From a virus: a stretch of DNA of 42,150 bases. The position numbers were made by a program, and so were the translations under genes. Shown here piece by piece: positions 4,551 to 39,006 of this stretch (the stretch's first letter is position 1; the number at the start of each line of letters is the position of its first letter). The stretch spans positions 1 through 42,150 of IMG/VR virus record IMGVR_UViG_3300012926_000009. The stretch is one strand, 5' to 3'. The notes below the pieces were generated by a model. It saw only the letters and a program-made list of their open reading frames with translations, made no database searches and was not told the DNA's origin.

Positions 4551-5192
4551 ATGGCTAACGCGATCACCAGCAAGGCGAAGGAGATTTACACCGGCCGCAT
4601 GATCGGCGCCTCGCCCACTCAAGCCGAGCCGAAGATCGTGACGTGGGGCTTAAATCCATCGGCGCTCACCGCCGCCGCGACCGATATCGCGATGTTTCAG
4701 GAATCCGGAGAGGCGCGTGTCACGGCGACTAGCTCGCAGGTGACCACGACCACCAGCAACGACACCTACCAGCTGGTCGGCACCATCACCGCGAGCACCA
4801 CGCGCGCGATCACCGAGTTCGGCGCCTTCGATTCGGCCACGCAGCCGGCGGTGGCGGCAGTCGCGGCTGGCGGAGTAGTCGCATCCAACTCGGCCACGAC
4901 GCTGAACACCGCCGCGACCTTCACGCCTGGCAACAACAACTACATCCAGATCCGCACCGAGGTCATGAAGGTTACGGCCGGCAGCGGGACGACCGCGCTG
5001 ACCGTAACACGGGCGCAGAACGGATCCTCCGCTATCTCGACCATCGCAGTGTCGGATACGGTGACGCCTGGCAATCCGCCCGGGCAGAGCGGCATCACGG
5101 GCGGCAACATGTTTGTGCACTCGGATTTCTCGGTGATCAATTTGAACGCATCGGACTCGATCGCCTTTACGCACAAGGTGCAGTTCTCATGA
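4551..5192 (+). CDS. Beta-rich structural protein (appendage or decoration)
   Basis: A 213-aa protein with high Thr, Ser and Ala, predicted mostly beta. The segment NNNYIQIRTEVMKVTAGSG followed by TTALTVTRAQNGSS matches a beta module that recurs in phage structural proteins (an I-x-I-x-x-E-x-M-x-V turn followed by LTVTR-x-x-x-G). The N-terminus contains TSKAKEIYTGRMIG and TWGLNP. It is probably an external virion protein; whether it belongs to head, neck or fibre cannot be read from sequence. Its stop overlaps the next ATG. Confidence 0.6.
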   Translation: MANAITSKAKEIYTGRMIGASPTQAEPKIVTWGLNPSALTAAATDIAMFQESGEARVTATSSQVTTTTSNDTYQLVGTITASTTRAITEFGAFDSATQPAVAAVAAGGVVASNSATTLNTAATFTPGNNNYIQIRTEVMKVTAGSGTTALTVTRAQNGSSAISTIAVSDTVTPGNPPGQSGITGGNMFVHSDFSVINLNASDSIAFTHKVQFS

Positions 5193-5767: not shown

Positions 5768-6130
5768 ATGCCCCTTTTCGCGGACCGGGTCAAAGACATC
5801 ACCACCACGACCGGGACCGGCTCCGTCACGCTCTCCGGCGTTCCTCCGGCTGGTTTCCAGTCGTTCGCAACCGCCTTCGGTGCTTCGCCGGTTTTTGTGA
5901 GCTATTGCATAGCCGATCAGCTCGGCGGCAACTGGGAAGTGGGCAAGGGCACCTTCAACGGCACCACGACACTAACGCGCGACATGGTGCGCGGCAGTAG
6001 CAACGCTGGTGCTTTGGTCAACTTCGAGGCCGGTATCAAGGATGTGTTTGTCACGGCAGCGGCCGAGGACGTCGATAACGCGAACATTGGATTTGTTTAC
6101 GCGCAAGCGCGCGGCTTCATGATGCCTTGA
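5768..6130 (+). CDS. Conserved phage appendage protein
   Basis: A 120-aa protein with a strong ribosome binding site (GAGGGAG). It begins PLFADRVKDITTTTGTGSV and contains SYCIADQLGGNWEVGKGTF, TTTLTRDMVRGSSN and NFEAGIKDVFVT. This arrangement is familiar from small proteins encoded near tail fibres or structural clusters in many phages. Function unknown; probably a fibre-attached or capsid-surface domain. Confidence 0.7.
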   Translation: MPLFADRVKDITTTTGTGSVTLSGVPPAGFQSFATAFGASPVFVSYCIADQLGGNWEVGKGTFNGTTTLTRDMVRGSSNAGALVNFEAGIKDVFVTAAAEDVDNANIGFVYAQARGFMMP

Positions 6131-6140
6131 GGGGAAACGC

Positions 6141-6575
6141 ATGCCCGCCAATACCGATCCAATCTTCTCCGCCAAGGGCGACGTATCTAACAATTCCGGC
6201 ACCGGGATGAACGCGCTCATTCTGACGGCCGCGAACGACTATACAGGCGCCGGGGCAAACAATTCTCTGGTGTTCACTGCCGATGCTACCAATGGCTCAT
6301 ACGTTGAGCGATTGAGATTCAAAGCAGGCGGGACCAATGTCGCGAGTGTGGCGCGCATCTTCCTAAACAACGGATCCGGCCCAACGACAGCTACCAATAA
6401 CGTCTTCTATGGCGAATTGAGTCTGCCGGCGACTACCGCGATTGCGACTGCTTCGACCATTGATCTGGACTATCCAATGGGATTCGTGCTGCCGGCCGGA
6501 TTCAGGATCTATGTCGGTCTTGGCACCACGGTTGCTGCAGGATGGGTGGTCACGGCCATCGCCGGGAGATATTGA
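6141..6575 (+). CDS. Beta-rich structural protein, unknown
   Basis: A 144-aa protein preceded by a good ribosome binding site (GAGGGG). The text reads like a jelly-roll or Ig-like chain: NSLVFTADATNGSYVERLRF, ASVARIFLNNGSGPTTATNN, YPMGFVLPAGFRIYVGLGT, GWVVTAIAGRY. The final part, an LPAGFRIYVGLG strand after a hydrophobic loop, is common in small phage virion proteins. No catalytic residues. The next gene starts on the base after its stop. Confidence 0.6.
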   Translation: MPANTDPIFSAKGDVSNNSGTGMNALILTAANDYTGAGANNSLVFTADATNGSYVERLRFKAGGTNVASVARIFLNNGSGPTTATNNVFYGELSLPATTAIATASTIDLDYPMGFVLPAGFRIYVGLGTTVAAGWVVTAIAGRY

Positions 6576-7517
6576 GTGCTTGATTTTTTTCACACTCCAT
6601 CGAAGTTCACGGGAGATGTGCAGATATTCAATGCCAACGCAGCGGCTGCTGGCGTCGGTTGGTCGATTTGGAAAAAACCGCGCGGCGTTTCCATGTGCTA
6701 CATCTTTGGCCTTGCGGGTGGGGGAGGCGGAGGAGCCGGATTCGTTGGGGCTGCCAGCGGTGCAAGTGGTGGCTCGGGAGGAGGTTCATCTGCCCAAGCC
6801 GTGCTGCAGATCCCAGCCTTTTTCCTTCCAGATGTTTTGTTTGTTAGTGTGGGAGTCGGAGGCGCTGGTGGATCGGCAGGCGGCGGCAGTGCCGGTATTG
6901 CAACACGGGTAGCGGTCTCCCCAGATACGGTCGCCAATAACACGCTTGTTCTTGTTAATGGCGGCGGAGCCGGGCTTATTGGCGTGGCATCTGGCACCGC
7001 CTCTGCAGGCAGCGGCGGTGGTGCCTTGTCCGTTACTTCCATGTGTCTAGCAGGATCAGGACTAATGCAACAAATAGGAGGATCTGGCGGCGGTGGCAGT
7101 GGAGCGGCCACGACTGCGGCAGCTGGAGGTAACAGTATCCTCTCAACTACTGGAGTATTTTTGACTGGAGGAGCGGGCGGCGGATCAATTGCCACGGCTG
7201 GAACGGGTGGGGCGGGTGGTAATGTCACTGGAGCCGGGATTTTCCCCACGCTTACAGGTGGTGCGGGCGGTGCGACGACGAATCCTGGAATAGCTGGTTC
7301 AGGCGGGTATGTGCTTAGCGGTGGTACTTGGCCGAGGGCGCATTTTGGTGGAAGTGGAGGCGGTGGCAGCGGTCCCACTGGCACTGGCGCCGGTGCTGTG
7401 GGTGGCTGTGGCGGCATCGGTTCCGGTGGCGGCGGTGGTGGCGCCATGTTCACAGGCGGCACGGGAGGTCTTGGCGGTCGCGGTGGTGATGGCATCGTAA
7501 TCATCATCTCGTGGTGA
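6576..7517 (+). CDS. Glycine-rich fibre/adhesin-like protein
   Basis: A 313-aa protein with a short N-terminal domain (FFHTPSKFTGDVQIFNANAA, then GWSIWKKPRGVSMCYIFGLA) followed by about 250 residues dominated by Gly with Ala, Ser, Thr and spaced hydrophobics. An aromatic W-x-KP-x-G segment leading into a poly-Gly core is a known architecture of phage appendage proteins, and long glycine-rich stretches can form polyglycine-II sandwiches in fibre-tip adhesins. It starts at GTG immediately after the previous TGA. The opposite-strand open frame over this region is a composition artefact. Probable surface-exposed recognition or fibre protein; the host ligand cannot be inferred. Confidence 0.65.
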   Translation: MLDFFHTPSKFTGDVQIFNANAAAAGVGWSIWKKPRGVSMCYIFGLAGGGGGGAGFVGAASGASGGSGGGSSAQAVLQIPAFFLPDVLFVSVGVGGAGGSAGGGSAGIATRVAVSPDTVANNTLVLVNGGGAGLIGVASGTASAGSGGGALSVTSMCLAGSGLMQQIGGSGGGGSGAATTAAAGGNSILSTTGVFLTGGAGGGSIATAGTGGAGGNVTGAGIFPTLTGGAGGATTNPGIAGSGGYVLSGGTWPRAHFGGSGGGGSGPTGTGAGAVGGCGGIGSGGGGGGAMFTGGTGGLGGRGGDGIVIIISW

Positions 7518-7521
7518 ACGC

Positions 7522-8595
7522 ATGGCCCTGCTCGGCCATGATGCCGTATCCGAAGTCCCAATATCCGGCACGACCGGTGCTGCGACTGCTCAGGGCATTG
7601 GAACGCAGCTCTCGCGGGTCATCTGGCCCGGCACATCTCCAGCGCGCGCCATTCCGAATCGCTTTTTGACGCCGACTTGGGCGATAGGAGGCGGCGCAGT
7701 CGCGCAGCAGTTCACATTGACCCTCACTACGACGCAGGCCACTTCCGCATCCATCGCGAAGGCTGTCTCCGCGACGAAAACCGCGACGCAGGCGAGCAGC
7801 GCCGTGATGATTCGCGCGGTGAGCGTCGCGCACTCCGCCGCACAGGCAACCGGCGCGGCCCTGGTCAAATCCGCCTCAAAAGTCATGAGCGCCGCTCAGT
7901 CAGCCGCCGCGACACTGCGAAATAGCGTCTTTTTGGTACATTCAGCGACCCAAAGCACCGCGGCGGCCTTGTCGAAATCGGCCCTGATCACCAAATCCGC
8001 GACCTCGTCGACCGTCGCGTCTCTCATTAAGTCCGTCGGCGTGGTTCGCTCCGCCGTCTCCGGTTCGACCGCCTCCCTTGTCAAGGCCGTGAGCATCACC
8101 CGCGCAGCAAGCCAGGCGAGCGCCGCCTCGATTCAGCGCGCCGTTAGCGTCGGCCTCGCCGCTGTACAGGGCTCGGCCGCCGCCCTCGCCTTTGGTCGAG
8201 CGTTCCACCTCGTCCTGACCGCCGTACAGGCCACCATTGCGACCCTAGATTGGGTGATCCATCGGGCTCCAGGCCCCACAGCTGGTGGTGGCGGTGGGGA
8301 TCGGTTTGGCCGGACATTTGGCCGTCGTCTGGCGCCCGGCGCCGGGGCAAGGCTCGCCAAGCCAGCCGTACCGGTTTACGATGTGGCCGGTTCAGCGACG
8401 AGCGCCAATGGGCAGCAGGACTTTCACGGTACGGGCACGATCGAACTCGTGTCCATCGCAGGCGAGGGCAGCACCGAGGGTGCAGCAGCGGGAATCGTCG
8501 CCTTCGCCGAAATCGACAGCCGGATTCCGACCAATCGCAAGCGCGCCGCGATCCTTTCCGCCTTGCTGGAGGCCCTTTCCAGAAAATGGCGCTGA
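7522..8595 (+). CDS. 18-residue-repeat structural protein
   Basis: A 357-aa protein in three parts: an N-terminal domain (residues 1-63, with ISGTTGAATAQGIGTQLSRV), about ten tandem 18-residue repeats (about 64-244), and a C-terminal domain including FHGTGTIELVSIAGEG and IPTNRKRAAILSALLEALSR. Repeat units follow a pattern such as AVSATKTATQASSAVMIR: small residues, a conserved Gln near position 10, and a basic residue at the end. There are no Cys and few aromatics in the array. It is probably an elongated virion appendage. Similar TATQASSA units recur in the tail tip protein at 20514-24494. Confidence 0.6.
   Translation: MALLGHDAVSEVPISGTTGAATAQGIGTQLSRVIWPGTSPARAIPNRFLTPTWAIGGGAVAQQFTLTLTTTQATSASIAKAVSATKTATQASSAVMIRAVSVAHSAAQATGAALVKSASKVMSAAQSAAATLRNSVFLVHSATQSTAAALSKSALITKSATSSTVASLIKSVGVVRSAVSGSTASLVKAVSITRAASQASAASIQRAVSVGLAAVQGSAAALAFGRAFHLVLTAVQATIATLDWVIHRAPGPTAGGGGGDRFGRTFGRRLAPGAGARLAKPAVPVYDVAGSATSANGQQDFHGTGTIELVSIAGEGSTEGAAAGIVAFAEIDSRIPTNRKRAAILSALLEALSRKWR
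7711..8253 (+). repeat. Tandem 54-bp (18-codon) repeat array
   Basis: About ten degenerate in-frame units of 54 bases encode the 18-residue repeats. The period stays 18 residues across the array, with two extra residues before the last unit. Divergence between units is substantial at DNA level, so the array looks old rather than freshly expanded. Conserved positions are the central Gln (units near the middle have Ser) and terminal K/R. Confidence 0.75.
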
Positions 8596-23500: not shown

Positions 23501-24494
23501 GATCCGTCGCAACCGGATTAACTGGCAATGGCTGCCGCTGGTCGACGTGCCGATGTCGGAAGCGAGCGAAGCCTATCTCGTGTCGATCTTCAGCGGTGCG
23601 AGCGTCGTTCGTACCATCAGCGTGAGCGGCGCCGGAGTGCATACCGCGACCTATACGCTTGCGCAGCAAATAACGGACTTCGGCGGTAGCGGTCTAACGA
23701 GCATCACGTTCGGCGTTCAGCAGATATCGGCGATCACCGGGCCTGGCGTGATGGCGAAAGCCACCATTGCATTAGCGCCTCAGCCGTACGTCCCGGTCAC
23801 GTACACAAAGACGATGACGGCAACGCAAGCTTCGACTGCTTCTTTGTCAGCCGGATTTATCACGCCTAAGGTGATGACGGCGACGCAGGCGAGCAGTGCG
23901 ACTCTCTCAACCACATTTATCAGCGGCAGCGGTACGACTTGGGATCCAGCAAAGACTCAATCAAATAACTCGCTTTCCAACGCAAATCTCACATTGTCCT
24001 CGACAGCGGGTGGCGCTAATTCGACACACGGCACGCAGAGTACTACCTCGCATGCTAATTCGTCAGGCAAATACTATGTGGAATTTACGGTGGATGCTTC
24101 TCACGCTGGAGCGCCTTTCCAGAATGAGATTGGGGTCGGTATCTGTGATTCGGCTTGTGCTGGTGTGCTTTCTTCGGCGGTTAATTGGACATGTGGAGGT
24201 TGGGACGGTGGATATTTGCTTCTCAACGGGGGTGTTAACTCATCTGGAACTGGCACCTACGGCAGCGGGGACGTAATCGGCCTCGCGATTGACATGAGTG
24301 GATCTAGCCCGAGCGTAAGTTGGTATAAAAACAATGTTCTTTTGACCACGGCGAGCTCAGTATCCGGTACAGGACCGTGGTTCATCTTTGGTTGGGCTAT
24401 TTCGGCAACTGGAACTAATGCACAATTGACCGCGAATTTCGGCGCGACTGCGTTCACGTACACACCACCGGCCGGATACACCGGAGGATGGTAA
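20514..24494 (+). CDS. Tail tip / host-recognition protein with SPRY-like C-terminus
   Basis: A 1326-aa protein in the place of GTA gp15 or lambda gpJ. N-terminus (IAGAVIGYYIPGVGPALGFA, PILYGTDRVTGSLIDEDPAG, YGWFAVALCEGPITGIRKIW) and LSDIVSGICQRVGLQTGQLN at about 535-560 are typical of this tail protein class. Residues about 220-530 are an additional beta-rich insertion with repeated FxG and WxHV-type strands. Residues about 1099-1135 hold two TMTATQAS units like those of the 7522-8595 protein. Residues about 1143-1326 resemble a SPRY domain: KYYVEFTVDASHAG, GDVIGLAIDMSG, SWYKNNVLLTT, TANFGATAFTYTPPAGYTGG. The C-terminus probably touches the receptor. Confidence 0.88.
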   Translation: MADKVLAIAGAVIGYYIPGVGPALGFAIGSLAGAALFPPKIDGPHTRNLASMNGSYGAMLPILYGTDRVTGSLIDEDPAGIQEVGSTQGGKGGPSVTTFAYYGWFAVALCEGPITGIRKIWANRILIYDVSSTASGGTIANSNTFAANYLTVYLGTTTQNQDPTMQSWHGAGNVSAYRGTAYLVFRGLPLANFANMKPSIEAEVVTVAAVTTPITKLWENDSTSFPLYPGGSTTGKFVGIPTGISGSQVRIYDRNAFLVGGGTAGNDGNTYILALSNGSVQAPVTPNSFESAIQTNNLAVGGPPKFGDAGTYYAGLIMPHAAGNCGVYSTGIGATDVILQSPTRSGILGTGPAMWVEDYATGTLQTDVIASLSTPPGLVGTWRLYAVFPCADWQHVCAVTYDGTNTNAWLHILSVGSDYSVAEIARYNFYAAHGADAFAQVSGFFNSNGYTASSTWNSAMLESNLSAVWLTGSGGANILYRFAISGGIVTTPQNFGSPFTGAFGANTAMFADNGLCLITDFTHYALFSVTSSSGQITLSDIVSGICQRVGLQTGQLNVTGLTDQVYGFKLDRQMTARAAIEAITPAWWFDGVESDGQLKFVHRSAAPLATITLDDMGADTSGKNNASPLQFVRGSEMELPSQLNLTYYAVGADYQPGVQYARRLIGLESNNIQSIDTAAVMDDTQAAVAAAIIMWDTIAGRVSFKFSTSYKWAQYEPTDILTIQTNNESYLARCTRKTEGAGKIDWEFTACAPVYTQSALGGAISSGQIVGGASPTTAIIMDIPPLRDPDGAADNLYVAMYGETGWPGGTLYKSSDGGVTFVAGVSMGTLATVGRATTTLGAAAVGGNMFDEGNTVTITILSGQTLSSTSELSVLNGANVALLGKEIFQFKNAVLTGTDTYVLSGLLRGRFGTEGFTHSVGESFVLLSSPGVIAIQAAPTSDIGQPRIYDAVTQGQPLPTGQQQTITEQANTLVCFSPVHLNAGGAGYYNDIVLTWIRRNRINWQWLPLVDVPMSEASEAYLVSIFSGASVVRTISVSGAGVHTATYTLAQQITDFGGSGLTSITFGVQQISAITGPGVMAKATIALAPQPYVPVTYTKTMTATQASTASLSAGFITPKVMTATQASSATLSTTFISGSGTTWDPAKTQSNNSLSNANLTLSSTAGGANSTHGTQSTTSHANSSGKYYVEFTVDASHAGAPFQNEIGVGICDSACAGVLSSAVNWTCGGWDGGYLLLNGGVNSSGTGTYGSGDVIGLAIDMSGSSPSVSWYKNNVLLTTASSVSGTGPWFIFGWAISATGTNAQLTANFGATAFTYTPPAGYTGGW

Positions 24495-38202: not shown

Positions 38203-39006
38203 ATGATCTACGACCGTGTGCTGAAGTCCGAGTTGATGAATTCAGATCGCTGGCTGGATTTGCCCTCGGATTCGCACCGGCTAGCCTACGTCTGTCTGCT
38301 GCCGCTGGCCGATGATTTTGGCAACTTCGAGGCCGGATCGCGCCGGATGTGGCGCTGGCTGCACGCTCGCACTCAGGTCAAAGATGATGGGCACGCCATC
38401 AAAATCCTTTCTGACCTCATGGATGCCGATTTGATCCGCCCCTACACGGTGGCCGAGGCGGACTACTGGCACATCGCCAGGTTCCAATGCGATCGTCGAT
38501 ATGTCGTTCGGAGAGTTCCAGCTAGTCCATGGGACGATCCAGAATTGGAGATCAAAGGAGGTCTGATTAGACAAACTCGCAAAGCTCGTTCCATTGATTT
38601 AAAAGAGGAAAAAGCAAAAGTTGCAGCTAAGTTGCCGCAAAGTTCCGGTCAAGTTCCCGCTAAGTTACCGTTAGGGGTTGGGGTTGGGGTTGGGGTTGGG
38701 GTAAAGACAAAGACTCGTCCAAATTTGGCTATCCAGCCGGCTTCAGGCTGGTCCGAATTCTATGCAGCCTACCCACGCAAGGAGGCCAAGCTCGACGGCC
38801 TTAAGGCTTGGAATCAGCTAAGCCCAGCGGCCGAAGTGCAGCGCAAGATCATGGCCGACATCGGTCAACGGCTCGGGCTTGATCTCTGGTCCAAAGCCGA
38901 CGTCAAGCACATTCCATTGCCAGCGACTTACCTGCGAGCTAGACGCTGGGAAGACGAACTTGAGCCGCCCATCGCCGACTATCTGCGCCACGGCAAGGTG
39001 ATCTGA
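38203..39006 (+). CDS. Replication initiator (lambda O-like arrangement)
   Basis: A 267-aa protein: N-terminal winged-helix-like domain (IYDRVLKSELMNSDRWLDLP, AYVCLLPLADDFGNFEAGSR, ILSDLMDADLIRPYTVAEAD), a variable linker at about 115-170 encoded by iterons and a GGGGTT tract, and a C-terminal domain starting WSEFYAAYPRKEAKLDGLKA. The arrangement (DNA-binding domain, intragenic repeats, C-terminal helicase-interaction part) is that of lambda-type initiators. Ribosome binding site GGGAG. Confidence 0.78.
   Translation: MIYDRVLKSELMNSDRWLDLPSDSHRLAYVCLLPLADDFGNFEAGSRRMWRWLHARTQVKDDGHAIKILSDLMDADLIRPYTVAEADYWHIARFQCDRRYVVRRVPASPWDDPELEIKGGLIRQTRKARSIDLKEEKAKVAAKLPQSSGQVPAKLPLGVGVGVGVGVKTKTRPNLAIQPASGWSEFYAAYPRKEAKLDGLKAWNQLSPAAEVQRKIMADIGQRLGLDLWSKADVKHIPLPATYLRARRWEDELEPPIADYLRHGKVI
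38590..38701 (+). other. Candidate replication origin inside the initiator gene
   Basis: Five AAGTT-headed units begin at 38618, 38629, 38640, 38651 and 38662, exactly 11 bases apart (example AAGTTGCCGCA). Directly after them five GGGG runs separated by TT (38674-38701) form a strong G-quadruplex candidate. An A-rich stretch (38590-38618) precedes. Phased iterons within the initiator gene plus an easily melted segment is the design of lambda-like origins. Confidence 0.7.

Follow-up and report, generated by a model that had tools for sequence, protein, structure and literature searches.

What does a phage do with a protein built around ten copies of an 18-residue unit, and why do two related units stand in the tail tip of the same phage? 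The question arises in a viral stretch of 42,150 nucleotides (the whole of which we call the window), where the gene at 7522..8595 encodes P0001, a repeat protein of 357 aa. This gene, the three genes before it and the tail-tip gene all lie on the plus strand, and coordinates are given throughout as positions of the window. Taken together, our analyses indicate that P0001 probably serves as a spacer arm in binding to the host surface.

Results

The preliminary description of this DNA had reported at 7522-8595 an open reading frame with about ten 18-residue units, each with a central Gln. The array was borne out: ten units in register span residues 64-243 of P0001 (7711..8250), and the self-similarity of the protein, measured against shuffled sequences, is strong at a lag of 18 residues (z ~10-11.0) and recurs at lags of 36 (z=8.5) and 54 (z=5.8). 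The central Gln holds for eight of the ten units, where it lies near the middle, and is missing from units 6 and 7, and there is a two-residue shift in unit 10. A copy of P0001 at another locus, L002, is 84% identical and also has ten units. Orthologous units of the two copies are 83% identical, as against a mean of 35% among the units within one protein, and dN/dS between the copies is 0.23 over the whole gene (0.12 in the N-terminus, 0.27 in the array and 0.15 in the C-terminus). From these values we conclude that the array is old, that the number of units has been stable between the window and L002, and that P0001 is under purifying selection. The C-terminal segment (8374..8592) is conserved, with 93% identity to L002, and relatives of it beyond L002 were not detected in the fetched sequence set. 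Another repeat of the window, at 38617-38702, combines a degenerate repeat of 11 bp with about five copies of GGGGTT after it; it falls inside the ORF 38203-39006, beside a DnaB-like gene, and encodes GVGVGVGVGV.

P0001 matched no family in Pfam, PHROGs or the PDB, and in NCBIfam it matched only a serine-rich model, with 15.8 bits where the cut-off is 650. Searches by tblastn with P0001, with the linker of the tail tip and with the N-terminus of the Gly-rich protein encoded just upstream gave zero matches in 50,697 phage records, and a search through 385 genomes from the same class as G013, run without a positive control, found no P0001-like gene. AlphaFold2 returned no usable model of the array (pLDDT 36), and the hydrophobic moments of the array, read for alpha against beta structure (as in the beta-spiral or beta-helix of fibre shafts), were equivocal and weakly helical.

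Our results show that P0001 ends a cassette recurring in many environmental phages, in which a protein of ~120 aa, a predicted beta-sandwich of 144 aa and a Gly-rich protein precede the repeat protein. Separate scans with genes 1, 2 and 3 each led, in many phages, to the same genes in an unchanged order. Gene 1 (5768..6130; MPLFADRVKDITTTTGTG...), which has no match in Pfam, has homologues in L002 and in L015-L020, which either lead the cassette or are fused to fibre-like proteins. Gene 2 (6141..6575) has relatives in 147 viral stretches; with a pLDDT of 88.6 for the AlphaFold2 model, obtained from 71 homologues, its product is predicted with confidence to be a beta-sandwich, jelly-roll-like in form. 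The best structural neighbours of this model, the trimeric cement protein of KHP40 (Z 9.3) and the turret of HFTV1 (Z 8.2), exceed by only a little the background that orphan models usually give. Gene 2 has no sequence match to any PDB chain, and the base protein of the RcGTA head spike, Rcc01079, was absent among the matches listed for it in the PDB sequence and fold comparisons. The Pfam family Gly_rich_2 (PF21722), which comprises glycine-rich phage proteins, may be related to tail-fibre adhesin tips. The Gly-rich protein of 313 aa encoded by gene 3 (6576..7517), whose N-terminus has relatives at 46 viral loci, matches this family weakly, below the cut-off in the window copy and near the cut-off in its homologues. 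No PHROG was found for any of window genes 1-4, and nothing relevant to such a cassette came up in searches of the literature.

The last genes of the cassette have an N-terminal motif in common, MALLGHDAVSEVPISG in P0001 (7522..7569), and begin with LGHDAVSEVPIS in the window, LGHDPLSTRPLS in L067, LGFGPLATTPIS in L068 and LGHNALSEDALS in L152. When scored with a PSSM derived from other phages, the training set of which excluded both the window and L002, the LGxxxLSxxPIS that P0001 carries at its start codon reached 25.4 bits and stood at the top of the window's 42,305 13-mers, the next one scoring 14.4. Across all loci we found 23 cassette-end genes with LGxxxLSxxPIS, most of which have strong tandem periods, usually of 18-24 residues, with a repeat sequence that is specific to each phage. 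P0001 combines all three traits of this family, which is defined in the present analysis: the N-terminal motif, the place after the Gly-rich gene and a tandem period, here of 18. The repeat gene directly follows the Gly-rich gene in the window and in L002, L019, L020, L068, L076, L081 and L119. In the window the cassette is flanked by portal and prohead protease, and in L119 (Pfam-checked) by MCP and head-tail connector; as read from the sequences only, it occupies the portal/MCP interval in L068 and L081, the terminase/portal interval in L020 and a place just after the tail tip in L019. Its order is conserved while its genome position changes, tail loci included. Since the 213-aa gene at window 4551-5192 has a homologue downstream of the L172 tail tip, more than four genes may have been inserted between portal and protease.

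The tail-tip protein P0002 (20514..24494) matches the GTA megatron in part: it shares Phage-tail_3 and the Rcc01698 C-terminal domain (Rcc01698_C) with the RcGTA megatron Rcc01698 (NF048004), and its residues 533-1084 match the NF048004 model at 420 bits, short of the equivalog cut-off of 800. Unlike the megatron, P0002 gives no match to the GTA TIM barrel and has extra repeat units and a SPRY-like C-terminal end. Two units related to those of P0001 had been described just before this end, and we confirm them at 23802-23855 and 23862-23915 (residues 1097-1114 and 1117-1134), spaced by 20 residues, as against 18 in P0001. The end itself (24075..24443) is weakly SPRY, its match to Pfam SPRY (22.7 bits, E 1e-4) lying below the gathering cut-off of 26.3; it also matches phrog_10080 (E 1.6e-18).

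Plain blastp between P0001 and the P0002 units was weak (E=0.054), and an HMM of the P0001 units alone did not call P0002 at E<10. Since single 18-mers are too short for an HMM, PSSM ranking and shuffles were used. A PSSM built from the P0001 units placed the two P0002 units first and second of 212,994 18-mers (from the window and a set of its relatives), also when the array's own composition served as background, and the match is thus not merely one of low complexity. A 46-residue segment of P0002 compared with the P0001 array gave z=6.0, none of 1000 shuffles being as good. In a larger scan, of 2.06 million 18-mers, the P0002 units ranked first and third, with 28.1 and 21.2 bits. An unrelated T/A/S-rich protein stretch in L082 reached 22.5 bits with the same PSSM, which makes one unit alone unconvincing and two in tandem convincing. 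When viral contigs were scanned at the DNA level for ATQA[ST] units in tandem, the sole find was an unrelated low-complexity ORF in L014. The P0002 units are at most 44% identical to those of P0001, about the same distance as that of the P0001 units among themselves; a recent DNA transfer between the two genes was considered and set aside, there being no sign of recent copying at such identities.

How far does this match extend to related phages? The window tail linker fits only the arrays of P0001 and L002 (z about 6), and the tail linker of another cassette phage, G003, fits only the array of G003 itself (z 16.6). The tail tips of L003 and L172 have two degenerate units at the same place as those of the window (KSLSITVPTSLALTRG/KKSFSISQATALSLSKT in L003 and TKSLSASAGASAVLGSS/AVALSASVSTSASLTTG in L172), and these linkers fit that of the window (z 6.6 and 8.0, respectively) but not the P0001 array (z 0.3-0.6). 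The exception to this pattern is the L003 tail, which gave z 4.7 against the L002 array. As the tail tips of close relatives do not fit P0001, the match between P0001 and P0002 is genome-specific, and it may reflect either a duplication inside the genome or a contact between like repeats.

Taking the repeat protein of each of the other cassette phages as query, we searched most or all of the contigs of that phage. In this non-random sample of possibly incomplete contigs, the repeat recurs in a second gene in four genomes (the window, G003, G546 and G547) and was not found to do so in about nine. In G003 (117 kb), the repeat protein has only one other match in the record (E=7e-11), a Phage-tail_3 tail tip in which two LamG domains come after six GYAPT-like units. 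G546 has a 325-aa protein with units and a C-terminal domain (E=1e-13), and a second match to a protein with weak cement-protein similarity that bears two units at its end (E=0.05). This latter protein is L183:6474-7445, and the phage cement protein that it weakly resembles is PF09956. In G547 the repeat recurs in a second gene (E=1e-4), and the cassette-end protein itself contains LamG domains. The 192 kb record of G547 also has a second repeat gene, L199:16559-18226, with 22-residue units bearing TTQA/TVTQA motifs that resemble the P0001 unit; against this gene the P0001 array gave z 3.0, and 3 of 300 shuffles did equally well. No second gene was counted in G006, G008, G009, G011, G012, G548, G549, G550 and G552, or in the fragments G004 and G010. 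Two matches were not counted: in G550 the match lies at the start of a contig whose end cuts the gene short, and in G549 it is another frame of the same DNA, again at the contig start. The shared repeat precedes a SPRY-like or LamG tail-tip end in two of the four genomes (the window and G003), LamG or SPRY-like ends follow two units in the tail tips of L172, L003 and the window, and LamG occurs inside the cassette-end gene of L063.

The preliminary description had read the common motif as a module exchanged between appendages. Part of this idea stands: the unit is shared beyond low complexity, and the sharing seen in G003, G546 and G547, with quite different repeat sequences, fits a reused module. 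Co-occurrence in two genes is not general, and the pairing, which is absent from about nine phages that have a repeat protein, appears dispensable for the cassette to work.

Discussion

We favour, at slightly better than even confidence, the explanation that P0001 is an arm, held by its N-terminus, in a transferable virion adhesion cassette of four genes, the spacer unit of which is reused to present lectin-like domains. A location on the virion, anchoring, an extended, elongated shape and a role in adsorption are what we infer for P0001. Its N-terminal motif would anchor the protein to the particle, most likely through another cassette protein, the ten units would form a spacer arm that keeps the conserved C-terminal segment off the particle, and this segment or its partners would touch the host surface. 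In P0002, the two like units would be a spacer between the baseplate body and the lectin-like end. Its support lies in the repeats and the selection on the gene, the shared unit, the constant cassette order at changing positions, the 23 cassette-end genes with one N-terminal motif, the repeats found beside lectin-like domains in L063, G003, L172, L003 and the window, and the predicted likeness of gene 2 to phage cement and turret proteins. On the other side, with the pLDDT of 36 and the equivocal moments of P0001 the arm is no more than a proposal, the C-terminal segment has no detected relative beyond L002, and the Z of gene 2 is only a little above the orphan background.

The RcGTA head spike (base Rcc01079 and fibre Rcc01080; GhsA/GhsB) is a model for how the anchoring could work, and membership is not claimed. 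Rcc01080 bears DUF2793; P0001 is without this domain (Pfam) but has tandem repeats, and there is no detectable sequence relation between the head spike and the cassette. Both are alike in outline, with a jelly-roll-like partner gene, and the short hydrophobic N-terminal peptide by which the RcGTA head fibre is attached can be likened to the short N-terminal motif of P0001 (PMC7296036). The spacing of the two differs, being LGxxxLSxxPIS in P0001 and IALGLGLGL in the RcGTA fibre. In RcGTA, residues 2-10 of the head fibre, which serves in capsule binding, bind the jelly-roll base pentamer, and the remainder is flexible (PMC7296036). A narrower form of our explanation would make P0001 a capsid fibre that works like Rcc01080 and is inserted by its N-terminal peptide into an oligomer on the capsid, here one formed by the product of the gene at 6141. 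We hold it to be possible, on the doubtful side: the RcGTA binding mode, the predicted resemblance of gene 2 to cement and turret proteins and the location of the window cassette between portal and prohead protease/MCP agree with it, but the cassette or its core adjoins the tail tip in L019 and in Rhodobacter phages of cluster RcC, P0001 has no DUF2793 and gene 2 no PDB sequence match.

The genome-specific fit of the linkers (z about 6 in the window and 16.6 in G003, as against 0.3-0.6 for L003 and L172 with P0001) is also consistent with a docking function, in which the like repeats of P0002 and P0001 would pack together and recruit the cassette fibre to the baseplate. This is unlikely, given the roughly nine phages with a repeat protein and no matching second gene, the z of 4.7 that departs from the pattern (tail of L003, array of L002), and the G546 repeat, which is common to two further genes, so that a single tail-tip partner is not the rule. 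That the Ala/Ser/Thr-rich linkers are alike by convergence or low complexity could be argued from the single match in the unrelated L082 protein (22.5 bits in 2.06 million 18-mers) and from the blastp value of 0.054; the two tandem units ranking first and second with a composition-matched background, the absence of an equal among 1000 shuffles, and the strong independent cases in G003 and G546 largely refute it, and we regard it as very improbable. We give just as little credence to P0001 being an internal or assembly protein (scaffold-like or a chaperone) instead of an appendage. Its gene does adjoin that of the prohead protease, and the array is Ala-rich with a weakly helical periodicity; against this stand the varying position of the cassette between phages, tail loci included, and the LamG lectin-like domains in at least one cassette-end homologue.

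The RcC phages (RcDormio gp22-gp24) have the core of the cassette, with homologues of genes 2 and 3 adjacent to each other, and lack the repeat gene; in those in culture the pair follows a GTA-like tail tip and a DUF2793 protein, and is annotated as hypothetical. In chromosomes of Cypionkella and Pseudorhodobacter (L147, L148, L150 and L151), a homologue of gene 2 occurs together with a Gly-rich gene and a DUF2793 gene, the last confirmed by Pfam in L147. As far as can be read from sequence, the trio has the same flanks across genomes, transporter-like before it and sugar-nucleotide dehydrogenase and epimerase-like after it. The locus resembles a domesticated, possibly GTA-related, adhesion locus.

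What does the cassette mean for the phages that carry it? Genes 2 and 3 and the repeat arm are widespread in environmental phages yet almost unannotated, and should the cassette prove to be an adhesion module, a large set of genes now called hypothetical would acquire a testable function. Genome-specific repeat matching between unlinked genes is a pattern open to survey in complete genomes, and it asks whether the repeats only space, or also decide which parts assemble together. In the latter case, which we think quite unlikely, the repeat would be a genome-specific assembly code, the like repeats of the cassette fibre and the tail tip (or other virion proteins) binding each other; if true, such a code would match an exchangeable adhesion cassette to the baseplate of its own phage.
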